From Mesorhizobium sp. SARCC-RB16n (GTDB lineage Bacteria; Pseudomonadota; Alphaproteobacteria; Rhizobiales; Rhizobiaceae): a stretch of 64,000 nucleotides of DNA. The stretch lies in the NCBI RefSeq assembly GCF_008520305.1, contig NZ_ML703253.1, positions 186,001 through 250,000 of the forward strand. Reading direction: 5' to 3'. The notes under the pieces are model-generated. The model saw nothing but the letters and a program-made list of their open reading frames with translations, did not search any database and was not told the DNA's origin. Made by a program: the position numbers and the translations under genes. Positions 38,967-56,995 of this stretch are shown piece after piece; positions within the stretch are counted from its first letter, which is position 1, and every line of letters starts with the position of its first letter.

Positions 38967-40124
38967 TCAGTCTTTCATCGATTGCTCGCGCAGCGAATCG
39001 GCCAACAGGTTGAGCCCCAGCACGAACGACATCAGCGCGATCGTCGGCGGCAGTGCCGGGTGGATGAAGGAGCGCAGCAATCGGCTGGCGTCCTTGATCG
39101 CGGTGCCCCAGTCCGGGCTCTCGGGCGCAAGGCCGAGGCCGAAATAACCCAGCGTGCCGAGCAGGATGGTGGTGTAGCCGATGCGCAGGCAGGCATCGAC
39201 GATCAGGGGTCCGCGTGCATTGGGCAGGATCTCCCACAGCATGATGTACCAGGGCGATTCACCGCGCGTCTGCGCTGCCGCCACATAGTCGCGCGTCTTG
39301 ATGTCCATGGTCAGCCCGCGCACGATGCGGAACACGCCGGGGCTGGAGGCGAACACCACCGCCACGAAGATGTTGAGCTGGTTCGGATCGATATGCACGA
39401 TCTTCAGCGGATCCCTGTCGAAGACAAGGCCGAGATAGATCCAGCCGCCGACGATAAGCGTCAGGCCGAGCAGGATGTAGATCCGGTCCGGCCGGTTCTT
39501 GTAGCGTGTCCAGAACAGCACGCAGAAGAAGATGATCGGAAACAGGAAGAAGACGCCGGCCAGCGCATAAGGGATCGGCGTGTCCATGATGCCCGGCGTC
39601 ACCAGGAGGTAGAACAGCAGGATCACCGGGAAGGCCAGCACGAGGTTGGCCAGGAACGACAGGATGGAATCGATCTTGCCGCCGTAATAACCGGCCGGCA
39701 GGCCGAGCGTGATGCCGACCATCAGTGCGAAACCGGTCGCGGCGGGCGCGATGATCAGCACGATCTGGCTACCATAGACCATGCGCGAAAAGACGTCGCG
39801 TGCGAGCTTGTCGCCGCCGAACAGATAGACGAGCCCCGATTGCGGTTCGATGGCGCCCGGCAGCGTGTCCTTCATGATCGGGATCTGGCCGAGCGGATCG
39901 AAAGGCGAGATGGTTGAGGCGAAGATGGCCGTGAACAGCCAGAACAGGCAGATGAAGACGCCGGCAATGCCGACGCCGCTGTCGAACAGCTGGCCGTAGA
40001 GCGCGAGCTTCTTCTTGTAGATGAAGCTCGCGCCCATGACGATGGCGAGCGCGAGCCAGACCGGCCAGAAGCGCCAGAGCACTTCGAGGATGATGGCGGA
40101 GGCGCTGATATATTGGGCTTGCAT
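38967..40124 (-). CDS. Peptide-type ABC permease (DppC-like)
   Basis: A 385-residue inner-membrane permease. Residues 1-100 contain two spans; a large insertion (about 170-240) adds three further hydrophobic segments (FPVILLFYLLVTPGIMDT, VFFLFPIIFFCVLFW, IYILLGLTLIVGGWIYLGL) not found in standard DppC. The C-terminal EAA loop (YVAAAQTRGESPWYIMLWE) is typical. Its ATG (40124) follows the partner permease stop by 11 bp and has GGGAGAAGG upstream. Confidence 0.83.
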   Translation of the reverse strand: MQAQYISASAIILEVLWRFWPVWLALAIVMGASFIYKKKLALYGQLFDSGVGIAGVFICLFWLFTAIFASTISPFDPLGQIPIMKDTLPGAIEPQSGLVYLFGGDKLARDVFSRMVYGSQIVLIIAPAATGFALMVGITLGLPAGYYGGKIDSILSFLANLVLAFPVILLFYLLVTPGIMDTPIPYALAGVFFLFPIIFFCVLFWTRYKNRPDRIYILLGLTLIVGGWIYLGLVFDRDPLKIVHIDPNQLNIFVAVVFASSPGVFRIVRGLTMDIKTRDYVAAAQTRGESPWYIMLWEILPNARGPLIVDACLRIGYTTILLGTLGYFGLGLAPESPDWGTAIKDASRLLRSFIHPALPPTIALMSFVLGLNLLADSLREQSMKD

Positions 40125-40135
40125 GCGCCTTCTCC

Positions 40136-41170
40136 CTACTGAACGCGGATGCGCGGATTGAGGAACGCGTAGCCGACGTCGGAAATGAGCTGCGTGATCA
40201 GGACGATGAACACCGAGACCAGCGAACAGCCGAGCAGAAGATCGATGTCGTTGTTGCCCGCGGCCTCGACCAGCGTGTAGCCGAAGCCCTGGTAGCGGAA
40301 CATCACCTCGACGATGACGACGCCGGTGAGCAGCCACGGAAACTGCAGCATGATGACAGTGAAGGGCGCGATCAGAGCATTGCGCAGCGCATGCTTGACC
40401 ACCACGTTGCCAAACGAAAGGCCCTTCAATCGGGCGGTGCGGATATATTGCTGCGTCATCACCTCGACCATCGAGGCGCGTGTCATGCGCGCGATGTAGC
40501 CGATGCCGTAGATCGCCAGAGTGATCACCGGGAGCGTGAAGTTATAGAAGGTGATGCCCTGGCTCGCTGATGCCGCCGAGCCGTTCAGCCAGCCGAGCCA
40601 GGAGGCGAAGATGACGGTGAAGATGACGCCGGACACATATTCGGGCGTCGCCGTCGAGGCGATCGAGGCGACCGACAGCACGCGATCGGTGCGCGACCCC
40701 TCCCGCATGCCGGCAAGGATGCCGACCAGCAGCGAGACCGGCACCATGACCCCCAGCACGCAGAGCATCAGAATGCCGGTGGCGCCGAGCGCTGGAAACA
40801 GCTTGGCTCCGACCGTGGTCTTGAACTTGGTCGAGCAGCCGAAATCACCTTCGATCACGCCGGAGAAAGTCGGCACGACCGGGTCATTGCAGAACGAGAA
40901 GCGCTGTGTCGTCTTGCCGGTCGCCGGGTCCGTGATCGGCTGCTTGGGCACGACGCCGAGCCATTGGCCATAGCGGACGAAGAAGTTCTGGCGATAGCCG
41001 TGATTGACCAGCCAGCTTTCGAGCTGCTCGGCCGATGTGTGCATTTCTGTCTGGCTGATCGCCAGCTTCTTCAGATTGGGTTCGAGATTGACGAGGAAGA
41101 ACACGACCAGCGTCAGGCACAGCATCGTGAGCAGGATCGTGCCGATGCGTCTGATGATGAATGAGAACAT
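40136..41170 (-). CDS. Peptide-type ABC permease (DppB-like)
   Basis: A 344-residue permease opening MFSFIIRRIGTILLTMLCLT, the usual DppB start, with about six spans and the EAA loop YIRTARLKGLSFGNVVVKHA. Between spans 1 and 2 is a periplasmic stretch of about 90 residues with a Cys pair (FCNDP, FGCSTKF) that could form a disulfide. It is first of the permease genes after the binding-protein gene and is separated from it by two strong stem-loops. Confidence 0.85.
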   Translation of the reverse strand: MFSFIIRRIGTILLTMLCLTLVVFFLVNLEPNLKKLAISQTEMHTSAEQLESWLVNHGYRQNFFVRYGQWLGVVPKQPITDPATGKTTQRFSFCNDPVVPTFSGVIEGDFGCSTKFKTTVGAKLFPALGATGILMLCVLGVMVPVSLLVGILAGMREGSRTDRVLSVASIASTATPEYVSGVIFTVIFASWLGWLNGSAASASQGITFYNFTLPVITLAIYGIGYIARMTRASMVEVMTQQYIRTARLKGLSFGNVVVKHALRNALIAPFTVIMLQFPWLLTGVVIVEVMFRYQGFGYTLVEAAGNNDIDLLLGCSLVSVFIVLITQLISDVGYAFLNPRIRVQ

Positions 41171-41228
41171 TGTGCCCCCCTGCCGGCCGGGTTGGGGTCA
41201 GATATGGTCAACCCTGTTTCGAAAACCT

Positions 41229-41303
41229 TGTGACGTCACACCGTCGCTGCAAGGCATGCAGCGACGGAGATGCCGAAGAAGCGAAGGGCAACCCTTCGCT
41301 TCT
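41229..41303 (-). other. Palindrome plus two strong stem-loops between binding-protein and permease genes
   Basis: Three symmetric elements stand in a row in the 146-bp gap. TGTGACGTCACA (41229-41240) is a perfect 12-bp palindrome. CCGTCGCTGC/GCAGCGACGG (41241-41267) has a 7-base loop. AGAAGCGAAGGG/CCCTTCGCTTCT (41277-41303) has a 12-bp stem and 3-base loop. None is followed by a U-run on the minus strand. Such structures typically protect the 3' end of the binding-protein mRNA and reduce read-through. Confidence 0.7.
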
Positions 41304-41316
41304 ATCGAGCGATATG

Positions 41317-42975
41317 TCACGCCTGATCGAGCCAGACCTTGCCGAAGTCGTGCTCGTAGGTGGGGTGCATCGAGTGGTTCTTCACCTCGGGCTTGATGTT
41401 GATGTAGAGCTTGCGCCAGTAGGGCTGGATGATGATGCCGGAATCCTGCAGCATCTGCTCGACATCCTTCATCACCACCTTGCGCTTCTCCGCATCGGCT
41501 ATGCCGAGGGCCTCGTTGACCTTCTTGTCGAAGTCCGGATTGGCATAGGCCGTCTCGTTCCAGGCTTCGCCGGAGCGGTAGGCGATGGCGATGACCTGGA
41601 TGCCCAGCGGACGCATGTTCCAGTTGGTTTCCGAGAACGGATACTTTGTCCAATCATTCCAGAAGGTCGAGCTCGGCAGCACGGTGCGCTTCACCTTGAT
41701 GCCGGCTTCGCGCAGCTGGGCCGCGATCGCGTCCGTGGTGTTCTTGTGATAGTCCTCGTCATTGCTGATCAGCTCGTGCTCGAAATCGATCACGCCGGCT
41801 TCGGTCAGCATCTGCTTGGCCTTAGCCATATCGCGGGGGATCTTCGGAAGCGCGACATATTCCGGATGGATCGGCGCGACATGGTGGTTTTCCGCCGGTG
41901 TGCCGGCATTGCCGTAGCCGAGCTGCAGCACCACCGAATTGTCGACCGCCAGGCACATTGCCTGACGCACCTTCTGGTCGCCATAAGGCTTGGCGTTGAC
42001 ATTGAAGCGCGACACCACGGTTGCCGCCGTCACCACTTCCGAAACCGGAGCGCCGACACCTTCGATAATCTTGACGTAGTCGGCCGTCGTCTCGTGATTG
42101 GTCTGCACCTCGCCCGATTCGAAGGCCGAAACGGTTGCTGCCGGATCGGTGCCGTAGTCGATGAACTCGACGCCGTCGAGGAATGCCTCGCCCTGCCACC
42201 ACTTGCCGGTCGTGCGGCGCTTGTAGACCACCTTCTGGCCGACATCGTAGGAGACGAGCTCGAACGGACCGGTGCCGATCGGGCAGTTCTTGAAGTTGGC
42301 GCCCTTCTCGTCGAAGCTCTTGTGGACGACGAGGCCGGGATAGTCGCACAGGTTGGCGATGAGCGCGATGTCGGGCTTGGTGAGCTTCAGCTTGACCGTC
42401 ATGTCGTCGACCTTGACGATCGAGCCTTCGCTCAGCTTCTTGGTCTTTTCGTCGACGAGGCTGCCGAGGCGGCCCGGCATGGAATTGCCTGCTGCGTTCT
42501 TGTCGGCCCAGCGGGTGAAATTGTAGATCACGTCATCGGCGGTGAACTTGTCGCCATTGTTCCATTCGACGCCCGGCCGCACATGCAGTGTGTATTCGGT
42601 GGCGTCGTCGTTGATGTCCCAGCTTGCCAGGAGATAGGGCGCGAACGTGTACTCTTTGGTGTACTTCACCAGCGGCTCGAGCGCCTGGCGCTCGGCATTG
42701 GCAATTTCGGACCAGTCCGCCGTGCGCGGATCCTTGGGATCCTTGATCGACATCGCCACCTTCAGCACGCCGCCCTTCTTGCCCTTCACGTCCTCGGCCT
42801 TGGCCGGGGTCGGAGCGGCAAGGCCGAGCAGGCCATAAGCCATCGCCGTCGAAGCGCCGAAGATGCTGGCCAGCGCCAGGAATTCGCGACGATCGACCTT
42901 ACCCGACTTGGCTTCTTCGGCCATCGCCAGGATGTGATCCGGAACGCTGTCGCCATTGCTCTTGTAGATTGTCAT
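41317..42975 (-). CDS. Peptide-type ABC substrate-binding protein with Tat signal
   Basis: A 552-residue SBP_bac_5 protein. The N-terminus carries [15 protein letters not shown] at about 28-42, a Tat-type twin-arginine motif, followed by a hydrophobic stretch and an AKAE cleavage-like site near 60. The mature part shows the family blocks [20 protein letters not shown] and [13 protein letters not shown]. The cargo is unknown; the nearby MttB/DMGDH genes are not in the same operon, so betaine is only a guess. It is first in a four-gene minus-strand operon. Confidence 0.88.
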
Positions 42976-43227: not shown

Positions 43228-46200
43228 TCAATATTCCTTCTCGTAGAATATGCCGCCCTTGGCTTCGCCGGCGTCCGTAGCCTCACCGCGAAGTTTGGCG
43301 CCGCGCCCGACATTGAGGTCGACGGTCGCCTTGCCGGAACCCGGCTTGTCGCCCTTCTGGATGGTCACATAGGTGCGGTCGTTGAGATACTTCCCGGCAG
43401 AGACCGCCGTGCCGCCCTTGTCATCGGTGGTGACATCGAGATCGTCGACACCAATGGCGCTGCGCAGATTCTCCAGCAGCGACGTCGAGCCACCGACACC
43501 AGCCAGTTGCCCGGCCGCTTCGGCCAGTTGCGCAATCTGCAGCGGCGACAGGTTCGACATCGATCGCCCGAAGATCAGTTGCGCCAGCACCTCGTCCTCG
43601 GGCAGTGCCGGCACCGAACTGAAGGTGAATTTCGGATTGGTCGCCTCGCCCGACACCACGATGGTGACCGTGGCGCCGGTCGTGGTCGTCGTCGCCGTCA
43701 GATTGAGGTAAGGCACCAGCGAGCCCGAGAAGCCGACCGTGCCTTCGGTGAAGGTGAGCCGCTTGCCAAGGATCGACAGGCGGCCACGCTGCAAGGTGAA
43801 GGTGCCGACGGCTTGCGGCGACGAGGCCGGGCCCGTCAGTTTGAGCGAACCGCCGAATTCGGCGTCGACACCCCTGCCCTGGATGAAAATCTGGTTCGGC
43901 GCATTGACCGTGACGTCGAGCGCAAGGCCGCTGCCGCCGCTCTTGCCGCTGGTCGTCGCCGGGCGCAGCGCCTTGTCCTGCGCCTTGACCGGGCCCGGCG
44001 CATTCTTGTGCTTGACGTCGAGTGCCGAGAGCGAGCCCGGCAATTTGTCCGGAACCGTGATGACGGTCTTGGCTAGGTTGACGGTGCCGGCAATCGCCGG
44101 TGACGAAGTCAGCGGCCCCTTGATCGTCAGGTCGCCGCCAAGGTTGGCGGTCACCACGCGTCCATCCGTGTAGCGGCCATCGGTGAGCTTGATCGACAGG
44201 TCGGCCGGGAACCCCTGCGCCGGATTGATGCCGACCGTACCGCTGGCCGACAGGCTGCCGCGCGTCGACAGCGTTCCCGTCAACCGGTTGATCCTGGCGA
44301 CGCCGTTGCCTATCGAGACATCGGCCGCGATATCGTTGGCGGCAAGGCCCGAGCGTGCATCGACCAGCCGCGCGCCCGAGGTTTTGACGCTGCCGCCGAT
44401 CACGGGCGATGTCGCCGGACCGCGCACCTGCACATTGACGTTGGCGTTGCCGGTCAACGACAGGCCCTGCGCGGCAAGCTTCTCGCTAAGCAGGCCGAAT
44501 GGCACGGCACCGTTGAAATCGAGTGCCAGCGCCGGCGTGCCCGCCGTCATCACCGTGCCGCCGCCCTTGAGGCCAAGTCCAGCTCCATCGCTGATATTGG
44601 CGTCGAAGGTCAGCTTGTTGCCGGCAAAGGTACCCGCCGAGGAAACAGCGACCGCGCCGACGCCCGCGCCACGGGTCTGCGACGTCTGCACTCCGGCCGC
44701 GTCTATCTTGAAGGCAACGGCGGGGCTCGCCGGTGCGCCCGTCACCTTTACCGTGCCGGAGATGGAACCCGCGGCGTCGAGCCCGGGCGAGAAACTGTTG
44801 GCGAGTGACATCGGCACGCGCGCCAGTGCCGCATTGATCTCGAGCGCCTGCCCGACCTTGCCGGTTACCGTCGCGGTGCCGCCGCCAAGGTTGAGCACCA
44901 GCCTGTCCAGCGTCGTCTTGCCATTGGCGATGCTGACGGTCGAGGCCTGGGCGATGGCCGCCTTGACGCCCTGAACGGTCGCCTCTCCCGAAGCGAGCTC
45001 GATGGTGGTGGTGCCGCCGGCCACCTTCACGCGGCCGGCCGCCTTGGCCGGAATGCCCTTGACCGTGGCGCCGCCGGAGAAGCCGGTCCAGTCGCCGTCG
45101 CGCTTGAGGTCGACGTCGATGCCGCTGATCACGGTGCCGCCCGATGTGACGGTGTCGGCGCGGATCTTGCCGGAGATGACTGGCGCGGCGAGATAATTGG
45201 CGATCAGCGCATCGACGGAAACGGCCTTTGCCTGGAGGTCGCCACGCGTGATCGAGGCGGTAGTCGCCTTGATGGCGACCTGGGGTGCTGCGCCATTCCT
45301 GGCGAAGGCGATCGTGCCGCGCACGTCGCCTTCCGCCTTTTCCAGCGCCAGCGCGGCGAGCGGCCCGATATCGGGCAGGTCGAGCGAGATGGTGCCTTCG
45401 GGCACGAACTTGTCGTCCAGCGCCAGATCGCCGGAGATCCTGTTCTTGCCCAGCGACAGGAGCAGGCCGTTGATGGCGCTCTTGCCGTCGGCCGTTGCCA
45501 GCACGGCACTCCCCTGCAACGCCTGGCCGGCGACATTGCCGGTCAACTGGACATTGGCCGCCGGATTGGTGGCATCGGCCTTGCCGGTGGCGGTGAGCTT
45601 CAATCCGGTGATCTCGCGCGATGCCACAGAGAGCTTGTCGCTGTTGACGGTAAGCGACAGGTCGGGCGCCATGGCCGGCCCTTGCGCGCTCAGCGCGAAG
45701 GCGATGGCGCCCGTGGCATCCTTCGACAATGGCGAGATGTCGCTCAGCGCCCCCCTGATGTCGGCGGTCACCTTGTTGTCGGCGAGGCTTGCCTGTCCAT
45801 CGGCGCTCAGCGCGCCTGACGTCAGCTTCAATCCGCCTATGTTGAGATTGCCGTTGGGCTCGCGCTTCAGCGTGGCGCTTATTTGAGCGCGGTCGCCAAG
45901 CATGCCGCGTGCCGCCGCCGGCAAGGCCGACGATGGCGCATCCGCCTTGAGGTTGAGATCGATGGCGCCGTCACGCAGCGATACCTGGCCGGCGACCTGG
46001 CTGCTGAGCGCATCGCTTTTCAGCGAGCCGCTGTCGATGGCGACGGCGTCGGCGCTTAGCCGGGCGTTGAGCGCGGCCGTTACCTTGCCCGCGATGAGCG
46101 GCGCGATCGTCGGATTGTCGAGCCCAACCTTGTCCACCGACACCGTTCCGGAAACCGGCCCGGCGCGGTTCCTGAGATCGAACGAATCCGAATGCAGCGT

Positions 46201-49200
46201 CAGGGTAAGTCCGTCCACCTTCGCCGGGCCGGTGACGACCGAGGGCAGGATCGCGGAAAGGTCCAGCCGGGCATGCGTGCTTTCGCCCGCAATCTTGGCC
46301 GACACTGATCGGACATCGATCTTGACCGGGCTCTGGGCGCTTCCGACCGTCAGCGGCAGGCTGGGGCCGGACGAGGTCAGGTCGATCGCGAAATCGCTGG
46401 CCCCGTTCGGGTTGATGGTGCCGGCGGCCTGGCCGGAGACCTTGTCGCCGGAGAGGGTAGCGTGGTCAACGGCAACGCCGCCGGCAATCGTGTAGCTGCC
46501 GGCCGCGTCGACCGCGACTGGCCCGAGCCCTGCCTGTCGGGTCTGGCTCGTCTCGGCGCCGGCCAGTTTCGCGTTGAACCGGATGTCGGGAGCCGCCGGC
46601 GCTCCGCTCCCTTCGGCGATACCGTCAAGCGTTCCCGCTGCATCGAGGCCAGGCGAAAACGCGTTGGCAAGGGCGGCAGGCAAGGCCGAGACCTGCACCG
46701 CAAGATCGAGCGTCTCGCCGGCGCTGCCCGACAGCGCCACCTTGCCGCCGCCAATATCGAGCGCCAGCTTCTCGATATTGGCCGTGCCGTTGGCTATGGT
46801 CAGAGCCGACGGTTCGGCAATCGCCGCCTTGATGCCGCGAACGGTGGCGTCGCCCGAGGCAATCTCGACACTGGTGGTGCCCTCGGCGATCTTCACCCGG
46901 CCGGCAGCGGTTGCCGGAATGCCCGCGATTGTGGCGCCGCCAGTGAAACTGGTCCAGTCGCCGTCGCGCTTGAGGTCGACGCCGATACCGCCGATCTCGG
47001 TGCTTCCCGAGGTGACCGCATCGGCCTTGATGGTGCCGGAGATCGCCGGCGCCTTGAGATAATTGGCGATCAGCGCATTGATGGCGATCGCTTTGGCCGT
47101 CACCTCTCCACGCGCGACCGACGTGCTCTTCGCATCGATGGCAATGGACGGCGCGTCGCCGTCCTTGGCGAATAGGATGGTGCCGTTGATGTCGCCGGTC
47201 ACCGCCTGGCCGGCGAGCGCGGCCAACTGGTCGATTGCCGGCGCGGCGAGCGTCAGCGTCCCCAGGGGCATGAACTTGTCGTCGAGCGCCAGGTCGCCCG
47301 AGACCTTGTTGTCGCCCAGCGACACCAGGAAGCCGTTGATCGAACGCTTGCCCTCGCTGGTCACCAGGGCCGCCTTGATGTCGAGCGGCTGGTCGTTGAC
47401 GGCGCCGGTCAGCGAAACGTTTGCGGAAGGGCTTGTTATGTCGGCCTTGCCGCTCGCGGTCAGCTTGATGGCCTTCACCGTGCGGCCCGAAGCGGTCAGG
47501 CTGTCGCTGTCGGCGCTAACAGTGAAATCCGGCGCGGTGATCGCGCCGGTTGCCGAGAGCGCGAAATCGACCCCGCCGGCAACCGGCACGCCGACCGTCG
47601 GCGACAACACCGAAACGTCGCCCAATTTGCCCTTGATGTCGGCTTGAATGTCCGTGCCTTGCATGCTGGCCGTGCCGCTGGCGCTGAGCGATCCCGACGT
47701 GAGTTCGATGGAGTTCGCGGCGAAGGAGCCTTGCGGGTCGCGGGATGCCGTGGCCGAGAATTTCACCCGCCCGCCGAGCACCGAAGCGATCTGCTGCGGG
47801 AACGCGGTCGCCACGGCATCGGCATTCATTTTGAGCTGCATCGACATGTCGGCGAGCGCCACCGTCGCCGTCAGCGACGCATTGAGCGCATCGGAGCGCA
47901 ACGTACCTTGATCGATGGCAATAATGGCGTCCTTGCTGATTGAACCGGCCAGATCGACGTCGACCTTGCCGGTGACCAACGGCGCCAAGGTCGCGACGTC
48001 GGTTTTCAGGCCACCGGCCGCCAGCTTGACGGCAACCGGGCCGGCGCGATTCTGGATATCGAAACCATCGGAATGGATTTGCGCCGCCAGATCGTCCAGC
48101 CGCGTGCCGCCGGCGACGATCGAAACGAAGGAGGCGCCGATGTCGACGATCGGCGACTTACCGTCGCCGAAGGCGCGCGCGGTGGCGTTCTTGATCGCGA
48201 GCGTGATCGGCTGCGCCTTGCTGCCGACGCTGATCACCACGGGCGGGCCCTTGGCGGCGAGTTCGACCGACAGGTCGCTGGCACCGGCAGGGTCGGCAAT
48301 GCCGGAGGCGGTGCCGTGCACTGCATCGCTCTCGATGCTGGCCCGGTCGATGCTGATGCCGCCAGCCGATGTGGCGGTGCCCGCGACATCGAAGCTGGTC
48401 TTGCCGGCGAACAGCGGCTTCAGGTTTTCCGGCAGGAAGCGCGCAAAATCGCCGTCGCCCTTTGCCTCGATATGATTGCCCTTGTCGGTGAGTTGGTGGC
48501 GGCCGGTGAGTTGGGTGACGATCCGATGGTCGACGAGGAAGGTGCCGACACCACTCCAGTTGGCAAGGGGGCCGCTGCCCGAAACCACGATATCGACCGG
48601 TGGCGCATCCGGCAGCGTGAGCAGATTGGCGATGATGCCGCCGGCCGGCTCCGACGCCTTCAGGCCGAGGTCCAGCTTGTCGTCGGCGGGTGCGAAATGG
48701 ATCTTGGCATCGACATTGCCCTGCTTGCCGTCGTGGCGGGTGACGTTGAGCACTGTCTGGACCGCCAGTGGCGCGGCATCGGCCTTGAGCATTCCCTTGG
48801 CCGCAAGCTCGGCGATGCCGCTGCCGGCCAGTTGCTCGCCAAGCGCGATTTCCGGCAGGTCGATCTGCTTGATGTCGATGGAGACCGGCAGCGTCGTCGT
48901 GCCGCTCTGCGCCGGCGGCTGCGTGCCGGCCACCGGCAGGCGTGCCAGTTCGATGCGCTCCGCCGCGATGTGGTCGGCGCTGAAGCTTTTCGACAGAAGC
49001 GCCGTCGGTGACCAGTCGACTGCCACCTTGCGCGCCACCAGCCAGGCGCCCTCGCGATCCTCGAGCACGACATGGTCGACGCTGAGCGCGCCCGACCAGA
49101 TGCCGTCGATGCCGCTGACCGTGACCTTGCGGTCGTCAGTAGAGGCCAGCCGGGAAATGATGCCGGCGAGGTTGTCGCGTCCGCGCTCGGTCTTGGTCAG

Positions 49201-49284
49201 GACGACGATCGCGCCGATCGCGCCCGCGACCACGATCAGCAGCGTGTAGAGGACAATGCGAAGGATGCGCCGGACCGTCTTCAT
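43228..49284 (-). CDS. tamB: TamB inner-membrane translocation and lipid-transport protein, enlarged
   Basis: A 2018-residue AsmA/TamB-type protein. A single N-terminal span (about 5-31) anchors it in the inner membrane; the rest is a long beta-repeat periplasmic body ending in the DUF490/TamB domain (about 1650-2018; TFTLQRGRLSILGKRLTFTE and GGIFYEKEY at the end). TamB bridges inner and outer membrane with TamA, for outer-membrane protein and phospholipid delivery. E. coli TamB has about 1260 residues. The excess is due mainly to a tandem duplication covering about residues 309-935 and 936-1557. It starts 2 bp after tamA, so the two form one operon. Confidence 0.92.
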   Translation of the reverse strand: MKTVRRILRIVLYTLLIVVAGAIGAIVVLTKTERGRDNLAGIISRLASTDDRKVTVSGIDGIWSGALSVDHVVLEDREGAWLVARKVAVDWSPTALLSKSFSADHIAAERIELARLPVAGTQPPAQSGTTTLPVSIDIKQIDLPEIALGEQLAGSGIAELAAKGMLKADAAPLAVQTVLNVTRHDGKQGNVDAKIHFAPADDKLDLGLKASEPAGGIIANLLTLPDAPPVDIVVSGSGPLANWSGVGTFLVDHRIVTQLTGRHQLTDKGNHIEAKGDGDFARFLPENLKPLFAGKTSFDVAGTATSAGGISIDRASIESDAVHGTASGIADPAGASDLSVELAAKGPPVVISVGSKAQPITLAIKNATARAFGDGKSPIVDIGASFVSIVAGGTRLDDLAAQIHSDGFDIQNRAGPVAVKLAAGGLKTDVATLAPLVTGKVDVDLAGSISKDAIIAIDQGTLRSDALNASLTATVALADMSMQLKMNADAVATAFPQQIASVLGGRVKFSATASRDPQGSFAANSIELTSGSLSASGTASMQGTDIQADIKGKLGDVSVLSPTVGVPVAGGVDFALSATGAITAPDFTVSADSDSLTASGRTVKAIKLTASGKADITSPSANVSLTGAVNDQPLDIKAALVTSEGKRSINGFLVSLGDNKVSGDLALDDKFMPLGTLTLAAPAIDQLAALAGQAVTGDINGTILFAKDGDAPSIAIDAKSTSVARGEVTAKAIAINALIANYLKAPAISGTIKADAVTSGSTEIGGIGVDLKRDGDWTSFTGGATIAGIPATAAGRVKIAEGTTSVEIASGDATVRGIKAAIAEPSALTIANGTANIEKLALDIGGGKVALSGSAGETLDLAVQVSALPAALANAFSPGLDAAGTLDGIAEGSGAPAAPDIRFNAKLAGAETSQTRQAGLGPVAVDAAGSYTIAGGVAVDHATLSGDKVSGQAAGTINPNGASDFAIDLTSSGPSLPLTVGSAQSPVKIDVRSVSAKIAGESTHARLDLSAILPSVVTGPAKVDGLTLTLHSDSFDLRNRAGPVSGTVSVDKVGLDNPTIAPLIAGKVTAALNARLSADAVAIDSGSLKSDALSSQVAGQVSLRDGAIDLNLKADAPSSALPAAARGMLGDRAQISATLKREPNGNLNIGGLKLTSGALSADGQASLADNKVTADIRGALSDISPLSKDATGAIAFALSAQGPAMAPDLSLTVNSDKLSVASREITGLKLTATGKADATNPAANVQLTGNVAGQALQGSAVLATADGKSAINGLLLSLGKNRISGDLALDDKFVPEGTISLDLPDIGPLAALALEKAEGDVRGTIAFARNGAAPQVAIKATTASITRGDLQAKAVSVDALIANYLAAPVISGKIRADTVTSGGTVISGIDVDLKRDGDWTGFSGGATVKGIPAKAAGRVKVAGGTTTIELASGEATVQGVKAAIAQASTVSIANGKTTLDRLVLNLGGGTATVTGKVGQALEINAALARVPMSLANSFSPGLDAAGSISGTVKVTGAPASPAVAFKIDAAGVQTSQTRGAGVGAVAVSSAGTFAGNKLTFDANISDGAGLGLKGGGTVMTAGTPALALDFNGAVPFGLLSEKLAAQGLSLTGNANVNVQVRGPATSPVIGGSVKTSGARLVDARSGLAANDIAADVSIGNGVARINRLTGTLSTRGSLSASGTVGINPAQGFPADLSIKLTDGRYTDGRVVTANLGGDLTIKGPLTSSPAIAGTVNLAKTVITVPDKLPGSLSALDVKHKNAPGPVKAQDKALRPATTSGKSGGSGLALDVTVNAPNQIFIQGRGVDAEFGGSLKLTGPASSPQAVGTFTLQRGRLSILGKRLTFTEGTVGFSGSLVPYLNLTATTTTTGATVTIVVSGEATNPKFTFSSVPALPEDEVLAQLIFGRSMSNLSPLQIAQLAEAAGQLAGVGGSTSLLENLRSAIGVDDLDVTTDDKGGTAVSAGKYLNDRTYVTIQKGDKPGSGKATVDLNVGRGAKLRGEATDAGEAKGGIFYEKEY
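44614..48360 (-). repeat. Internal tandem duplication in tamB (two units of about 1.87 kb)
   Basis: Unit 1 (48360-46480, residues about 309-935) and unit 2 (46479-44614, about 936-1557) align along their whole length in the same order. Matched pairs include FDIQNRAGPV/FDLRNRAGPV, SGDLALDDKF in both, ALIANYL in both, VDLKRDGDWT in both, GIPATAAGRVK/GIPAKAAGRVK and NAFSPGLDAAG/NSFSPGLDAAG, at a steady spacing of about 622-627 residues. Divergence is too great for a recent event. Confidence 0.88.
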
Positions 49285-49286
49285 CG

Positions 49287-51215
49287 TCAGAACGCCTGGC
49301 CAATGCCGGCATAGATGCCGAAATGCGGGTCGCCGGGATCACGGTTGAGCGGCACGGCCGCGTCGATGCGCAGCGGGCCGAATGGCGTGACATAGCGCAG
49401 GCCGACGCCGGCGCCGACCTTGACGTCGGAGAAGTTGGGAACCGACCTGGTCGACACCGTGCCGGCATCGACGAACGGCACGATGCCGATCGTGTCGGTG
49501 ACGGCGATGCGCATCTCCACCGAAGTTTCGAAGAAGGACAGGCCGCCGATCGGCTGGCCGGTGAAATCCTTGGGCCCAATGCCCTGATAGGCATAGCCGC
49601 GCACCGAACCGCCGCCGCCGGAATAGAAGCGCCGGTCGGCCGGAACGTTCTGCAGCCCGGTACCAACGATCGAGCCGATAGAGACACGCTCGGCCAGTAC
49701 GAACTTCGAGGCGGTGTCCAGCGACTGATAGGCCGATCCCTCGCCCTTCAGTTTGAGGAAGGCGGCACCACTCAATATGTCGTAGCTTGGCTCGGCATAG
49801 GCGAGCACCCTGAAGCCCCTGGTCGGGTTCAACCTGCTGTCCCTGTTGTCATAGACATATTGCAGCGGAATGCTGGCGATCAGGTAGGTGTGCTTGCCGA
49901 AGGCGTCGTGGATGCGCGAATAATCGAGCGCCACCTCGGCCGATACGGTCTGCTTCTTGTCGAGTTCATAGGACAGGCCGGTGCTGCCCTTGACCGAGAA
50001 ATGGTCATAGGCGTCCGGATGCTCGAGCACGGTCTTCACGCTGGCGAAGAACTTCGACGCCGGTCCGATGACGCCGGGTTTCTCGAACATGATGCCCGCA
50101 TTGTAGTTCAGCTCGGACAGGTTATTGCTGCCGATGCCGCTGATGGCGCCGTCGATGCGCAGCTTTTCCGCGTGACCAAACAGGTTGCGATGGCCCCAGT
50201 AGCCTTCCAGACCAAGCCCCTCGGTGTTGGAAAAGGTGCCGCCGAGACCGTAATAGCGCGGCTTGCGCTCGCTGACCTGGACGCCGATCGGGATGTTGCC
50301 GTCGGCGTCGAGCTTGTCGGCTTCCTTGAAGGTCACGCTGTTGAAGACCTCGAGCGCCAGCAACCTGTCACGCGCGTCGCTCATCTCCTGCGGCGAATAT
50401 TGGCGGCCGCGCTTCAGCCCGGTCATGTATTCGGTGAAGTCGCGGTCGACCTTTTCGGTACCTTCCACGGTGGTCGCGCCATAGCCGGCTACCGGCCCGG
50501 CAGCGACCGTCAGCGTCACGTCGAGCGTCGAGGTGGCATGGTCGGCGACGATCTGCCGGTCGGTCACCTTGGCCAGCGGCCTGCCCTGCTCCTTCAGCGT
50601 CCGCACGATCAGCGCCTCGGCCTTGAGCACCGCGCCCGATCCGGCGTCGCCACCTGATATCAGGCCGTAATCGGCGCTCATCAGCTCCGCCGCATCGCCC
50701 TTCAGCCTGATATTGCCAAGGGTGAATTTGGGGCCGGCCGAGATGGTGATCGCCACTGGAATGGGCTGCGGCCCCTTGAACTCTGCGTCCGGCGGCAGTT
50801 CGTCGAGTGGCTTGCCGTCGATGGTGATGGTGACGACGCCTTCATAGCGGGCATCGGCATAAAGCGCCGCGACCAGCTGTTCGCGGTCGCTGCGCGCCTT
50901 GGTCATCAGCCCAAGCGAGCCCGAAACCGGCCGGTCCTCGTCGCCTTTCAGTGTCGAGGCATTTTCGAGCTTCTTGACGAGATCCTTGTCGGCATCGGGT
51001 GCGGAGATGGTCACCGCGTAGCGCAGGGGATCGACAATGTCAGCGTCCTCGTCTTTAGACGATCCCCACAGCTTGATGCCGAAAATCTCGAAGGCGCCGG
51101 CATGCCGCGCCTCGGCGAGCAGCGCCATCGAGCATATTATGGCCACAAGCAGGGCGTGCGGAAGCACGCGCCCTGGCGCGGTCCCTCCTGACATCTGCTT
51201 TTCATGCGCCGGCAT
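49287..51215 (-). CDS. tamA: TamA outer-membrane assembly protein (Omp85 family)
   Basis: A 642-residue Omp85 protein: signal sequence (hydrophobic at about 17-36), POTRA domains (about 60-310; TFLGNIRLKGD-type strands and the GRPLAKVTDRQIVAD segment), then a 16-strand barrel with the conserved GGGGSVRGYAYQGIGP loop near residue 545 and a terminal Phe. It pairs with TamB in the outer membrane. Starts at 51215 or 51194 are both possible; the later one (MSGGTAPGRVL) gives a shorter signal sequence. It is divergent from the alpha-2-macroglobulin gene 281 bp away. Confidence 0.9.
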   Translation of the reverse strand: MPAHEKQMSGGTAPGRVLPHALLVAIICSMALLAEARHAGAFEIFGIKLWGSSKDEDADIVDPLRYAVTISAPDADKDLVKKLENASTLKGDEDRPVSGSLGLMTKARSDREQLVAALYADARYEGVVTITIDGKPLDELPPDAEFKGPQPIPVAITISAGPKFTLGNIRLKGDAAELMSADYGLISGGDAGSGAVLKAEALIVRTLKEQGRPLAKVTDRQIVADHATSTLDVTLTVAAGPVAGYGATTVEGTEKVDRDFTEYMTGLKRGRQYSPQEMSDARDRLLALEVFNSVTFKEADKLDADGNIPIGVQVSERKPRYYGLGGTFSNTEGLGLEGYWGHRNLFGHAEKLRIDGAISGIGSNNLSELNYNAGIMFEKPGVIGPASKFFASVKTVLEHPDAYDHFSVKGSTGLSYELDKKQTVSAEVALDYSRIHDAFGKHTYLIASIPLQYVYDNRDSRLNPTRGFRVLAYAEPSYDILSGAAFLKLKGEGSAYQSLDTASKFVLAERVSIGSIVGTGLQNVPADRRFYSGGGGSVRGYAYQGIGPKDFTGQPIGGLSFFETSVEMRIAVTDTIGIVPFVDAGTVSTRSVPNFSDVKVGAGVGLRYVTPFGPLRIDAAVPLNRDPGDPHFGIYAGIGQAF

Positions 51216-51496: not shown

Positions 51497-54400
51497 ATGG
51501 CAATGCGCGCGGCTCGTGGTCTGTCGATCCTCATCCTTCTCTTCTTCGCCTGGGCCAACGCCTTAGCCTGGAACGGGGTCGCGCTAGCGGCCGAGGCCCG
51601 GCGAATCGCAACGACCGACAATTCCGACTATTTCGGTTTCGACCTCAGGTCGGACCAGAACGTCACGCTCGACCAGTGCAAGACGACATGTCTCGGCGAT
51701 CCGGCCTGCCGCGCCTTCACCTACAACACCAAGGCCAAATGGTGCTTTCTCAAATCCGACTATAACCAGTTGAAATCCTTCAACGGCGCGATCGCCGGCA
51801 AGGTCGTCAATATCGACGGCGATCCCGATATCGGTGCGCCGCCGGAACTCGCCTTCTTCCCCAACTGGATGGCCGACCAAGCCCAGCAATACCGCAACAA
51901 GCTGCTCGGCCCGGCCTTTGACAAGCCGACCGAGGGCATCGCGGCGCTGATCAACTCGGCCGAACAAGCGGTACAGACTGGCGACCATCGCTCCGCCATG
52001 CAGAAATATGAAGCCGCGGTCTCGGTCATGCCGGATGACGGCCAGCTCTGGCTCAAGCTGGCGCGCGAAACGCTGGCCGTGCAGCCTGCCGCGAACACCT
52101 CCGAAGCCTCGACTTTGCCGGCAAACGGCACCTCGGCCGCCTTTAACGCCTACAAGCTGCTTCGCACCACCAAGACGCGCGCCGAAGTGCTGGCGCTCCT
52201 CGGCAATGGTCTCGACAAGCGCGATCTCTACCGGCCGGCGCTCCAGGCCTATGAGGCCAGCCTTGCGCTGGAAAGCTCGCCCGCGGTGCAAGCCGACTAT
52301 GCCGATCTGAAGGCCCGCAAGGGTTTCCGTGTCATCGATCACTCTGTCGATGCCGACACCAGCGCGCCGCGCATCTGCGCCCAATTCTCCGAGGATCTGG
52401 TCAAGACCGGCGTCGACTACGCGCAGTTCGTCACTGTCGACAACGCGCCGCCCAAGGGCGTCGAGGCCAAGGACAAGCAGATCTGCGTCGAGGGGCTCGA
52501 ACACGGCCAGCATTATGACGTCACCTTCCGCGCCGGCCTGCCGGCCGCGATCGGCGAAGTGACCGCGGGCCCCGTGGTGCTTTCGATCTACGTGCAGGAC
52601 CGCGCGCCGTCCGCCCGCTTCACCGGCGACAGCTTCGTGCTGCCCGCAGGCGCGCGCCGCGGCATACCGGTCGTCACCGTCAACATGAATGCCGCCGAAA
52701 TGAAGCTCTACCGCATCGGCGACCGTTCGCTGGCGCAGCTTCTGTCGGGCTACCAGTTCCTGCACCAGCTCGACGGCTATGACATTTCCAACATTTCCGA
52801 GCAGATGGGCGCGCCGGTCTGGCACGGCCAACTCGACATCGTCAACGACCTCAACAAGGAAGTCACCACCTCTTTCCCGGTCGACGAAGCGCTGCCGCAG
52901 CGCAAGCCCGGCGTCTATGTGCTGACCGCCAAGGCCGTCAACGACAAGAGCGACGACTACGGTTCGCTGGCCACCCAGTGGTTCGTCGTCTCCGACATCG
53001 GCCTGTCGACCTATACCGGCCAGGACGGGCTCAATGTCTTTGCCCGTTCGCTGGGCAGCGCCAAGCCGATTGCCGGTGCGGAGCTGACACTGGTTGCCCG
53101 TAACAACGAGGTCCTCGGAACCGCGACGTCGGATGCGAACGGCCATGCCGTCTTCAACCCCGGCCTGACGCGCGGTGACGGCGGCATGGTGCCGGCCGTT
53201 TTGATGGCCAAGCAGGGCGACAATGATTTCGTCTTCCTCGACATGGCCAAGGCCGGCTTCGACCTGTCCGACCGTGGCGTCACCGGACGCGCCGCACCGG
53301 GCGCGCTCGACGTCTATGCCTGGACCGAGCGCGGCATCTACCGCGCCGGCGAGGACGTCCATGTCGCAGCCCTTGCCCGCGACGGTGCGGCCAAGGCGGT
53401 CGAGAACCTGCCGCTGACCTTCATCTTCTCGCGTCCAGATGGCGTCGAGGACCGCCGCATCGTCAGCGACGGTGCATCCGCCGGCGGCCACGCCGTCGAC
53501 CTGCCGCTCGAACCCAATGCCATGCGCGGCACGTGGTCGGTGTCGATCCACACCGACCCCAAGCAGCCGGCGGTTGCTAGCCAGATGTTCCTGGTCGAGG
53601 ACTTCGTGCCGGATCGCATCGAATTCGACATGAAGGCCGACAAGCAGGGGATTGCTCGGGGCGAAACCGCCAACATCGACATTGACGGCCGCTTCCTCTA
53701 TGGCGCGCCGGCGGCGGGCCTGGCGCTGGAGGGTGAACTGACGCTGTCGACGTCGCGCGACTGGGACCGCTTCCCCAACTTTTCCTTCGGCCTCGCCGAC
53801 GAGCAGTCGGCGCAGCCCACGGTCACGCCGCTCACCGATCTGCCTGTGGTTGGCGATAACGGCAAGGCGACCTTCCCTGTTAGCGTCGACCAGTTGCCAT
53901 CGACCACCAAGCTGGTCAACGGCAAGGTGACGGTGCGCATGCGCGAAACCGGTGGCCGCGCCATCGAGCGCTCGCTCAACATCGGCATCCGCCCGCAAGG
54001 CCATATGATCGGCATCCGTCCGGATTTCGCCGACGGTGAAGTGCCGCAGGGGGGCACCGCCAAGTTCAGCCTGATCGCCGTCGATCCCGACGGCAAGCGC
54101 GAGGCGCTGAAAGGCGCGCAGTGGACGCTGGTCAAGGTCGAACGCAATTACCAGTGGTACCGCTCCAACAACTCCTGGAACTACGAGCCGGTCAGTTTCA
54201 CCAAATCGATCGCCAACGGTCAGGTCGACCTCGGCGCCGACGGCGATGCGACCGTCTCCGTACCGGTCGATTGGGGCCAGTACAGGCTCGAGGTCGAGAC
54301 ATCGGACCCCGAGGGGCCGGCGACCAGTTACGAGTTCGACGCCGGCTGGTATGTCGCTTCGACCACCACCGAAACGCCTGACGGTCTGGAGATTGCCCTC

Positions 54401-56995
54401 GACAAGGACAATTATGCCGCGGGCGAAGTGGCCAAGCTGAAAATCTCGCCGCATTTTGCCGGCGAACTTCTCATCAACATCGGCTCCGACAAGCTGCTGA
54501 AGACCATCACGGCGACCGTTCCGGCCGGCGGCAGCACCGTCGATATCCCGGTCGGCGACGATTGGGGCGCCGGCGCCTATGTGACGGCCACCCTGTTCCG
54601 GCCGGGCGATGCGCAGGAAACACGCATGCCCGCCCGTGCCATCGGCGTGAAATGGCTGACGGTCGATCCGGGCGCCAAGAAACTCGCCGTCACCCTGACG
54701 CCGCCGGACAAGACAATGCCGCGCCAGCAGCTGTCGATCCCGGTTTCCGTGGCCGGCGTGCAGCCAGGCATCAACGCCTATGTCATGGTAGCAGCCGTCG
54801 ATGTCGGCATCCTCAACCTGACCAACTACAAGGCGCCGGACCCGGAGAACTGGTTCTTCGGCCAGCGCATGCTGGGCATGGAGATCCGCGACATTTACGG
54901 CCGCCTGATCGATGGCTCGCTGGGAACCACCGGCAAGCTCAGGACCGGCGGTGACGGCGCCAACATGCAGGCGCAAGGCAGCCCGCCCATCGAAAAGCTG
55001 GTCGCCTTCTTCTCCGGCCCGGTTCAGCTCGATGCCGACGGCAAGGCGCGGATCGACTTCGACATCCCGCAGTTCAACGGCACCGTGCGCGTCATGGCTG
55101 TCGCCTGGACCAAGGAGGCTGTCGGCCATGCACAGACCGACGTCATCGTGCGCGATCCCGTCGTTATCACCGCGGGTCTACCGCGCTTCCTGGCGCCCGG
55201 CGACAACGCCGTCATGCGCCTTGATGTCGCCGATACCGACGGCCCTGCCGGCGACTATGCGCTGTCGATCGACACGACGGGGGATCTGTCGACGGGCGAA
55301 AAGCCCCTGCCCCAGAAGCTGACGCTCGCCCAGGGCAAGCGCCAGACCTTGACCGTGCCGCTGATCGCAAAGACGGCGGGCAACGCCTCGCTCACCATCA
55401 AGCTGGCGCATGCCGACGGCACCAAGGTCGAGCAGACGCTCTATGTACCGGTGCGCCCGGCGCAATTGCCGGTCACCACGCGTCTTGTAGTCGACCTCAA
55501 GGGCAATGGCGGCGCGCTGCGCGTCGACAAGGAACTGCTGGCCGCCAGCCTGCTTGAAGGCGCTTCGGTCAGCGTCGGCGTTTCGCAGGCGGCTGCCTTC
55601 GACGTGCCTTCGCTGCTGATGACGCTTGACCGCTACCCCTATGGCTGCGCCGAGCAGACCACCAGCCGTGCCATGCCGCTTCTCTACGTCAACGAGATGG
55701 CATCCGGCATCGGCATGGAAAGCGACCCTGACCTGCACGGCCGCATCCAGGATGCGATCTACAAGGTCCTGAGCTACCAGTCCTCGAGCGGCAGCTTCGG
55801 TCTGTGGGGTCCGGGCTCCGGCGATCTGTGGCTCGACGCCTATGTCAGCGAGTTCCTGACCAGGGCGCGGGAGCAGAAATACGACGTGCCGGCTCTCGCG
55901 ATGAACCAGGCCCTGAACAACCTTCAGAACTCGCTCGGCTACGATCAGAGCGTACAGGACCGCGGCAGCGAGATCGCCTACGCCCTGTACGTGCTGGCCC
56001 GCAACAAGAAGGCCTCGATCGGCGATCTGCGCTACTACGCCGACACCCAGCTCGAAGCCTTCTCGAGCCCGATGGCCGTTGCCCAGCTGGCCGCGAGCCT
56101 GGCGCTCTATGGCGATGCACAGCGGTCGGAGGCGACGTTCAAGACCGCGCTGCAGCTCGCCAAATCGAGCACCGACTACGACTGGTACCGCTCCGACTAC
56201 GGCTCGGCGTTGCGTGACGGCGCGGCGATGCTGTCGCTGGCGGCGGAATCGAAGCCGGTATCGACGATCGTGCCCGAGCTGATCAAACTGGTGACCAGGG
56301 AACGCGCCGAGGCCCGCTGGACCAGCACCCAGGACGATTCCTGGATGCTGCTGGCGGCCCGCGCGCTGAAGGAGGGCAATGATTCGATCGCGCTGACCGT
56401 CAATGGCGCGCCGCATTCCGGCGGCTATTCCAACCAGGTCAACGGCCGTGAACTGGTCGACAGCCCGCTCGAAATCGCCAACACCGGCAAGGCCCCGCTG
56501 CAAACCGTCGTCACCACCGTGGCTTCGCCAATCCAGCCCTTGCCGGCCGGCGGTGACGGCTTCACCATCGCTCGCACCTACTACAAGCTCGACGGCACCG
56601 AAGCCAATGTGACGGAGGCAACCCAGAACGAACGCTATGTCGTCGTGCTGAAGGTCACCGAGCAGAACAGTTGGCCTTCACGCCTGCTGGTCACCGACCT
56701 GTTGCCGGCCGGCTTCGAGATCGACAATCCAGGCCTGGTCTCCAGCGCCCAGCTGTCGAATTTCTCCTGGTTGGCCCAGACCGACGCAGCCCATCTCGAA
56801 TTCCGCGACGACCGGTTCGTCGCGGCATTCAATCCGGCCGACGGCGACCACGACCACAATCTGACGCTTGCCTATGTCGTGCGCGCGGTGACGCCGGGCA
56901 CGTACGCCCATCCGGCGGCAACGGTTGAGGACATGTACCGGCCGCAATATTCGGCCCGCACCGCCACCGGCATGATGGAGATCAAGGCGCCGTAA
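51497..56995 (+). CDS. Bacterial alpha-2-macroglobulin with N-terminal PAN domain
   Basis: An 1832-residue periplasmic protease trap. It has a non-lipoprotein signal peptide (to about residue 34, ending ALAAEA), then a PAN/apple-like module (about 38-95; four Cys in QCKTTCLGDPACRAF ... WCFLK). Macroglobulin domains follow, then the A2M block near 1135-1230 and the thioester motif GCAEQ (Cys1384 to Gln1387), so the covalent trap is intact. The lack of a lipobox differs from the E. coli protein, which is a lipoprotein. It is next to pbpC as in many bacteria, consistent with a role guarding the cell wall after protease attack. Confidence 0.9.
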   Translation: MAMRAARGLSILILLFFAWANALAWNGVALAAEARRIATTDNSDYFGFDLRSDQNVTLDQCKTTCLGDPACRAFTYNTKAKWCFLKSDYNQLKSFNGAIAGKVVNIDGDPDIGAPPELAFFPNWMADQAQQYRNKLLGPAFDKPTEGIAALINSAEQAVQTGDHRSAMQKYEAAVSVMPDDGQLWLKLARETLAVQPAANTSEASTLPANGTSAAFNAYKLLRTTKTRAEVLALLGNGLDKRDLYRPALQAYEASLALESSPAVQADYADLKARKGFRVIDHSVDADTSAPRICAQFSEDLVKTGVDYAQFVTVDNAPPKGVEAKDKQICVEGLEHGQHYDVTFRAGLPAAIGEVTAGPVVLSIYVQDRAPSARFTGDSFVLPAGARRGIPVVTVNMNAAEMKLYRIGDRSLAQLLSGYQFLHQLDGYDISNISEQMGAPVWHGQLDIVNDLNKEVTTSFPVDEALPQRKPGVYVLTAKAVNDKSDDYGSLATQWFVVSDIGLSTYTGQDGLNVFARSLGSAKPIAGAELTLVARNNEVLGTATSDANGHAVFNPGLTRGDGGMVPAVLMAKQGDNDFVFLDMAKAGFDLSDRGVTGRAAPGALDVYAWTERGIYRAGEDVHVAALARDGAAKAVENLPLTFIFSRPDGVEDRRIVSDGASAGGHAVDLPLEPNAMRGTWSVSIHTDPKQPAVASQMFLVEDFVPDRIEFDMKADKQGIARGETANIDIDGRFLYGAPAAGLALEGELTLSTSRDWDRFPNFSFGLADEQSAQPTVTPLTDLPVVGDNGKATFPVSVDQLPSTTKLVNGKVTVRMRETGGRAIERSLNIGIRPQGHMIGIRPDFADGEVPQGGTAKFSLIAVDPDGKREALKGAQWTLVKVERNYQWYRSNNSWNYEPVSFTKSIANGQVDLGADGDATVSVPVDWGQYRLEVETSDPEGPATSYEFDAGWYVASTTTETPDGLEIALDKDNYAAGEVAKLKISPHFAGELLINIGSDKLLKTITATVPAGGSTVDIPVGDDWGAGAYVTATLFRPGDAQETRMPARAIGVKWLTVDPGAKKLAVTLTPPDKTMPRQQLSIPVSVAGVQPGINAYVMVAAVDVGILNLTNYKAPDPENWFFGQRMLGMEIRDIYGRLIDGSLGTTGKLRTGGDGANMQAQGSPPIEKLVAFFSGPVQLDADGKARIDFDIPQFNGTVRVMAVAWTKEAVGHAQTDVIVRDPVVITAGLPRFLAPGDNAVMRLDVADTDGPAGDYALSIDTTGDLSTGEKPLPQKLTLAQGKRQTLTVPLIAKTAGNASLTIKLAHADGTKVEQTLYVPVRPAQLPVTTRLVVDLKGNGGALRVDKELLAASLLEGASVSVGVSQAAAFDVPSLLMTLDRYPYGCAEQTTSRAMPLLYVNEMASGIGMESDPDLHGRIQDAIYKVLSYQSSSGSFGLWGPGSGDLWLDAYVSEFLTRAREQKYDVPALAMNQALNNLQNSLGYDQSVQDRGSEIAYALYVLARNKKASIGDLRYYADTQLEAFSSPMAVAQLAASLALYGDAQRSEATFKTALQLAKSSTDYDWYRSDYGSALRDGAAMLSLAAESKPVSTIVPELIKLVTRERAEARWTSTQDDSWMLLAARALKEGNDSIALTVNGAPHSGGYSNQVNGRELVDSPLEIANTGKAPLQTVVTTVASPIQPLPAGGDGFTIARTYYKLDGTEANVTEATQNERYVVVLKVTEQNSWPSRLLVTDLLPAGFEIDNPGLVSSAQLSNFSWLAQTDAAHLEFRDDRFVAAFNPADGDHDHNLTLAYVVRAVTPGTYAHPAATVEDMYRPQYSARTATGMMEIKAP

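Follow-up and report, generated by a model that had tools for sequence, protein, structure and literature searches.

Tandem middle units in the TamB protein of Mesorhizobium and whole-unit lengthening of TamB in related bacteria

The stretch of Mesorhizobium sp. SARCC-RB16n DNA analyzed here (the window; 64,000 nucleotides, contig NZ_ML703253.1, positions 186,001 to 250,000) encodes a 2018-residue TamB protein that contains a long middle unit twice in tandem. The C-terminal TamB/DUF490 domain (PF04357) occupies residues 1667-2018 and is matched over profile positions 2-381 of 381 (E 6.2e-54; 184.1 bits against a cut-off of 22.4). The NCBIfam TamB equivalog model NF047952 gives 139.3 bits against a cut-off of 825, and membership is not claimed; the name TamB therefore rests on Pfam and gene order. 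The adjoining tamA-like product matches the Omp85 (PF01103, E 1.6e-58) and POTRA (PF07244, E 2.1e-4) profiles; among NCBIfam models, BamA fits best and TamA second, both below their cut-offs. A TamA match is present in 196 of 200 loci, the remaining four (L069, L072, L073, L215) being truncated by a contig edge. The nearest named relative of the tamB product, from Mesorhizobium sp. M8A, is 96% identical and matched over residues 1-2018.

Local alignment of residues 309-935 with residues 936-1557 spans 623 columns, of which 297 are identical (48%) and 5 contain gaps. Its score of 1526 lies far above the maximum of 149 reached in 100 shuffles (mean 110, standard deviation 14.6), and chance or low-complexity similarity is rejected on this ground. 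Across the whole protein, the three top-scoring ungapped off-diagonals lie at offsets of 622 (residues 570-931, 55% identical), 627 and 626; the next-ranked offset scores 71 versus 1042. Self-BLAST of TamB proteins returned no off-diagonal pieces. Internal repeats were called by split alignment, and unit ends were set by a two-piece fit to a single-unit relative, since banded self-alignment overran the ends. Aligned with the single-unit protein of another Mesorhizobium (L217, 1392 residues), the window protein scores 6155 as two overlapping pieces and 4115 end to end. The fit places the junction after residue 919-931 and gives a repeated span of 621 residues, equivalent to residues 295-915 of the single form. 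Removal of one unit leaves about 1397 residues, near the length of the single-unit relatives in the genus (1389-1394 residues, n = 12). These results confirm that the middle of this TamB consists of two tandem units, each about 621 residues long.

An earlier note on this DNA had named the protein TamB, proposed a tandem duplication of about 625 residues and predicted that the protein less one unit would have the length of an ordinary TamB. All three proposals hold, the name by the Pfam match and the Omp85 gene beside it. The unit limits of the note, residues 309-935 and 936-1557, shift by 10-15 residues in our fit, to about 299-920 and 921-1541. Close relatives of normal length, which by the note's own terms would have spoken against the duplication had they aligned end to end without a gap, do exist, and they match only with one unit counted twice.

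Table 1 Features of the tamB locus in the window.
Feature	Coordinates	Strand	Product or residues	Basis or remark
tamB	43228..49284	minus	2018 aa	Open reading frame; Pfam PF04357
N-terminal part, single	48391..49284	minus	residues ~1-298	Aligns with single-unit relative ahead of the repeated span
Copy 1 of repeated unit	46525..48390	minus	residues ~299-920	Self-alignment and breakpoint fit
Copy 2 of repeated unit	44662..46524	minus	residues ~921-1541	Self-alignment and breakpoint fit
C-terminal part with TamB/DUF490 domain, single	43231..44661	minus	residues ~1542-2018	Pfam; aligns with the C-terminus of relatives
tamA-like gene (Omp85, POTRA match)	49287..51215	minus	642 aa	2 bases upstream of tamB

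Unit number varies within the genus. Among 146 genomes from the genus to which the M8A strain belongs, 110 have two units, 8 have three and 16 have one, and in 12 the gene is cut, split or frame-broken; this tally was taken from the matches listed, with a genome classed as two-unit where one match spans both units. At the 80 named loci, 70 genes encode 1990-2040 residues and five encode three units (L058, L059, L063, L064, L068; 2636-2638 residues). The other five are cut or frame-broken: the frame of L065 is interrupted, and L069, L071, L072 and L073 stop at contig edges. Three-unit proteins of 2638-2640 residues are also encoded by L225, L226 and L227, on contigs of 5.69, 6.65 and 7.32 Mb; L228 is probably the same record as L063. 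The two-unit form also occurs on complete chromosomes or complete sequence (L011, L030, L038, L055). The 12 single-unit genes that were translated lack a strong internal repeat, and the remaining four of the 16 are L253-L255 (1392-1394 residues) and L256 (1275 residues, incomplete at a contig end).

That the tandem units arise from misassembly has next to no probability. The copies in the window are 48% identical, the contigs of L225-L227 are several megabases long and the complete sequences carry two units, and we reject an assembly artefact for Mesorhizobium. A single locus speaks for it, and for that case only: the units of L140 (genome G103, L140:1-10001) are DNA-identical over about 1.7 kb, with 19 consecutive 90-base windows at 100%, in a draft contig of 186,765 bases, and the two copies are identical over the part compared in our tree of individual units (unit tree). 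L140 may reflect a very recent duplication, gene conversion or an assembly artefact.

Long TamB proteins are not confined to Mesorhizobium. A search of the family found a TamB match in 138 of 151 genomes. From the matches listed, 100 of the 138 were fetched, including every listed frame of at least 1700 residues except those of the Mesorhizobium genomes G001 and G076. In this set, 30 proteins have at least 1700 residues and 36 have at most 1410, so that at least 32 of the 138 are long. All 30 long proteins contain strong internal repeats by split alignment, and single-unit relatives in the family sample measure 1367-1402 residues. The breakpoint fit was applied to 16 doubled proteins, three of them from Mesorhizobium, each against a near single-unit relative (L144 was left out). 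The repeated spans comprise 478-621 residues, or 478-617 outside Mesorhizobium, and all lie inside residues 192-928; neither end of the protein is ever part of the repeat. Compared with the Mesorhizobium span of 295-915, the unit covers residues 218-751 in L115, 192-762 in L120, 220-836 in L140, 376-892 in L146, 449-926 in both L147 and L153, and 432-928 in L158. In L130, L149, L132, L136, L134 and L143 the spans cluster from about 329-351 to 847-866. The fitted proteins thus fall into about seven distinguishable sets of ends, Mesorhizobium included, and belong to 10 lineage groups.

A second mode of lengthening in the family consists of arrays of units of about 104 residues, many of them near residues 900-1100. 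Many of L151, L152, L161-L178, L187-L212, L233-L236, L238-L242, L245-L247, L249 and L252 carry such arrays, and the very close relatives L151 and L152 differ in both TamB length and repeat. Long-unit spans of 621, 617, 519, 517, 516 and 513 residues are near multiples of 104. We dropped the idea that the long units are multiples of an inherent period of about 104 residues, as spans of 571, 534, 497 and 478 residues are off-multiple. In 48 single-unit proteins no period of about 104 residues was found, the best ungapped lag lying within the range of shuffled columns.

In a wider sample of the class, TamB was matched in 64 of 190 genomes, and a frame above 1700 residues occurred only in the central Mesorhizobium genome, the next measuring 1695. 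Of 20 longer frames fetched from a sample of the order, six encode 1753-2262 residues with repeats at lags of about 205-410; these are L238, L239, L240, L242, L246 and L247, for which family membership was not given. Because stop-to-stop frames overstate protein length (for example, 2082 versus 1429 residues), the order-level list was kept out of the counts. Long TamBs are thus common in the family sample and absent beyond Mesorhizobium from the class sample, which sets only provisional limits to the trait.

In a tree of TamA and the ends of TamB with the repeated part excluded (FastTree, 130 rows, one operon as the source of the tree; L215 left out for want of TamA), the distribution of long-unit forms requires no fewer than 11 changes, counting both gains and losses. 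Single-unit proteins stand as sisters to long forms in the pairs L121-L120 (support 99), L137-L147/L153 (100), L148-L146 (90) and L135-L134 (84). The two copies of L115 are mutual closest relatives (100/99), as are those of L120 (99/96). Because the copies of each protein group together, the lengthening in L115 and L120 arose apart from that in Mesorhizobium.

Several observations temper the independence that the variety of spans would imply. Losses are counted among the 11 changes, and support is weak for 32 of the 127 branches of the ends tree. In the unit tree, copies from the same protein fall apart in all cases but L115, L120 and L140. The ends of L130 and L149, of L132 and L136, and of L134 and L143 lie within about 20 residues of one another, and those of L158 lie near those of L147 and L153. 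Since copies of one protein fail to group, some members of the cluster with similar ends, together with L146, L147, L153 and L158, may share an older duplication followed by losses. Any count of independent gains is tentative.

The two copies in Mesorhizobium also differ in their affinities. Over residues 300-520 of the single form, copy 1 is placed with single units from L117, L119, L151 and L152 (100/98) and with those from L253 and L254, which are singles inside the genus (98); copy 2 groups with other single-unit Mesorhizobium. A constraint that places all Mesorhizobium units together is rejected for residues 300-520 (p 1.1e-5) and not for residues 570-910 (p 0.28), the grouping having been chosen after a tree was seen and the p values being uncorrected. 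L122, L125 and L229, whose rows are long or uneven, were omitted from the tree that joins copy 1 to L117, L119, L151 and L152 and from the test. A clean within-lineage duplication for all of copy 1 is rejected by the other ancestry of residues 300-520. The single TamBs of L253 and L254 are themselves copy-1-like in their first part and group with copy-2-like singles in their second. An old duplication with reciprocal losses and an unequal recombination that placed two divergent alleles in tandem both fit the history of copy 1.

The second units of seven three-unit loci form one group (100/100), and the L225 second unit is placed with copies 2 from other species (100/99); three units arose either twice or once with later exchange. 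Copy 2 of the two-unit L021 falls among the second units of these seven loci (100/100), pointing to a lost unit or to exchange. Second and third units are mosaic in their similarity (L058, L059, L068, L226, L227), ranging in L227 from 56 to 100% per 90-base window. Compared with the window, L005, L038, L051 and L062 show a nonsynonymous divergence (dN) of 0.105-0.118 in copy 2 and 0.065-0.074 in copy 1; the higher value in copy 2 may mark recombination within it.

Both copies are under purifying selection. The ratio of dN to synonymous divergence (dN/dS) relative to 32 relatives is 0.08-0.30 for copy 1, 0.12-0.27 for copy 2, 0.10-0.27 for the N-terminal part and 0.05-0.14 for the C-terminal part, as estimated by a simple counting method from 32 of the 80 named loci, each paired with the window only. 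These values bear on the possibility of a near-neutral length ratchet, in which recombination between repeats adds and removes units and the resulting slack is tolerated without benefit. Such a ratchet is compatible with the several sets of ends, the mosaic second and third units, the apparent loss or exchange in L021 and the mixed ancestry of the L253 and L254 singles. Two units are nevertheless kept in 110 of the 146 genomes of the genus, and purifying selection on copy 1 is much like that on copy 2 and the N-terminal part. We consider near-neutral retention unlikely, and treat it as the main rival to a longer or slacker lipid track.

A structural model of residues 300-1489, built from 40 sequences, consists mostly of strands (mean predicted local distance difference test score (pLDDT) 76.8; predicted template-modelling score (pTM) 0.43). 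Successive strands run through both copies, with 37 strands of at least five residues per copy (the model covers 569 residues of copy 2), and low-confidence stretches begin at matching places. The modelled secondary structure repeats best at a lag of 626 residues (70.7% agreement versus a mean of 52.4% over lags). Hydrophobic alternation in copy 2 is 0.413, versus 0.364 for the highest of 500 shuffles. The structure prediction proposed in the earlier note thus suggests, at moderate confidence, strands that continue through both units. A model of residues 930-2018 was of low confidence (pLDDT 45.6).

Other results from the model weigh against a continuous doubled groove. The pTM is 0.43, copy 2 is only partly covered and each copy has low-confidence stretches; the hydrophobic alternation of copy 1 (0.350) also lies just under the highest of 500 shuffles (0.352). 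The best fold matches in the PDB, ApoB100 and LptD-like sheets, have query-normalized TM-scores of at most 0.18. The bridge-like LPD-3 complex appears at rank 9 (E 2e-3, probability 0.13, low TM-score), and the E. coli TamB fragment 5VTG matches weakly in sequence (E 0.093). Given the low TM-scores, the pTM and the partial coverage of copy 2, the model makes a doubled groove likely but proves neither it nor its continuity.

The extra unit might instead have a separate job, such as handling outer-membrane protein substrates or binding a partner, and leave the lipid path as it was. The long branch of copy 1 and its identity of 48% with copy 2 would suit such a specialization. The predicted strand pattern is similar in both copies, however, and the units of relatives have different ends, which fits a change of length better than one special function. 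We regard a separate job as improbable.

In the earlier note, the longer groove was expected to span a wider periplasm or to lengthen the lipid path between the membranes. On the first of these readings, TamB grew to bridge a larger gap. Dimensions reported for E. coli lend this some plausibility: one modelling study puts the TamB model at 17.8 nm, which must stretch to 24.6 nm, the periplasm measuring about 26 nm (PMC11014939). At 4.8 Å per β-strand, 37 added strands would give up to about 18 nm. A wider periplasm would be expected to lengthen other proteins that span it. The YhdP/AsmA family provides such a comparison, as its long members are thought to cross the same periplasm. Lengths were compared as stop-to-stop frames. 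Of 40 genomes whose TamB class was known, 32 have a YhdP-like match, 13 of them above the curated cut-off; all seven in two- and three-unit Mesorhizobium are below it. These frames measure 1180, 1178, 1203 and 1162 residues in two-unit Mesorhizobium and 1181, 1220 and 1181 in three-unit Mesorhizobium (none was found in G262), as against 1147, 1147, 1132 and 1152 in single-unit Mesorhizobium, where G183 has only another match of 1076. In other lineages they span 1138-1164 residues in genomes with long-unit TamB (n = 7; G083 has no match and G014 a 677-residue piece) and 1138-1203 in single-unit genomes (G034, G137, G074, G078, G072, G020). Long AsmA-like frames measure 1346, 1331, 1349 and 1351 residues in two-unit, 1364, 1356, 1336 and 1336 in three-unit and 1306, 1291, 1273 and 1283 in single-unit Mesorhizobium; G245 has no such long frame.

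YhdP-like and AsmA-like frames are therefore slightly longer in two- and three-unit Mesorhizobium, by 10-88 and 25-91 residues, respectively, which agrees with a somewhat wider periplasm and weighs against a cause restricted to TamB. Neither shows a gain comparable to the 620 or 1240 residues of TamB in the eight two- and three-unit Mesorhizobium compared. TamA is constant in length (636-665 residues in 196 loci), and one-, two- and three-unit forms all occur inside one genus. On these grounds we reject a wider periplasm as the principal explanation, and this part of the earlier interpretation falls; we give it little probability.

We lean towards a different reading, in which the TamB groove was extended by one in-frame unit of about 621 residues set beside its counterpart, giving a longer track with slack in a manner particular to TamB. 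The added unit would lengthen the hydrophobic track between the N-terminal part (residues ~1-298), which we take to be the inner-membrane anchor, and the end at TamA. Rather than spanning a wider periplasm, the bridge would gain slack, run obliquely or hold more lipid at once. A simulation study reports up to 15 lipids in the E. coli TamB groove (PMC12800296), and a longer groove could therefore hold more. Unequal recombination, either among tamB alleles or from unit to unit, would add and remove units. A repeated β-groove would tolerate the insertion of whole units, and such tolerance would make TamB length unusually changeable here. A broader proposal, which we hold only tentatively, is that TamB is a lipid bridge of changeable length that was extended by whole units several times in the family of Mesorhizobium, with one to three units inside a single genus and partly through recombination between divergent alleles, with its length set by a TamB-specific factor and not by the periplasm.

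The protein shares with E. coli TamB the C-terminal TamB domain and a TamA-like Omp85 neighbour, and probably, as predicted, a long run of antiparallel β-strands. In contrast, E. coli TamB has 1259 residues compared with 2018 or about 2638 here, where one or two whole middle units are additional. Phospholipid transport and outer-membrane protein assembly are putative roles of this TamB. In Sinorhizobium meliloti, insertions in the putative tamA and tamB reduce competitiveness in the presence of NCR247 and of polymyxin B (PMC5539429). The Deinococcus radiodurans TamB homolog DR_146T, from a distant lineage without TamA, is compared here by description. Divergent from tamA lies a large gene for a bacterial alpha-2-macroglobulin that carries a PAN domain (51497-56995, plus strand), and downstream of tamB (38967-42975, minus strand) are a family-5 solute-binding protein (PF00496) and two open reading frames that by eye resemble transporter permeases.

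The closest parallel in process is found in eukaryotes. A study of VPS13 proteins describes internal groove duplications of about 500 residues in VPS13C and VPS13D, arising in two independent events and suggested to be tied to the width bridged (PMC7613979). As in that case, units were duplicated in separate events: the two copies of L115 pair with each other, as do those of L120, apart from those of Mesorhizobium, and other lineages are less sure. The likeness is one of process and not of membership, and the two systems are set side by side by description, not by sequence homology. VPS13C and VPS13D are eukaryotic, whereas TamB is bacterial, occurs with one to three units in one genus and comes with sister proteins that serve as internal controls. 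The recurrence in the family, the third unit and this counterpart go beyond the earlier note, in which only the duplication itself was proposed.

In an earlier study, Heinz et al. (2015) found TamB to be of fairly uniform length, with a small number of very long exceptions (PMC4494059). Among the papers listed in searches of the open-licence literature (subscription papers and outside preprints being beyond its scope), we found no report of unit duplication in rhizobial TamB. Our result qualifies the view of consistent TamB length and offers a bacterial parallel to bridges that grow unit by unit. The relation between the length of a lipid bridge and the gap that it crosses is an open question for bacteria and eukaryotes alike, noted for VPS13 as yet to be studied (PMC7613979). 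If our reading is true, relatives with one, two and three units would offer a natural series in which to ask what the length of the bridge does.

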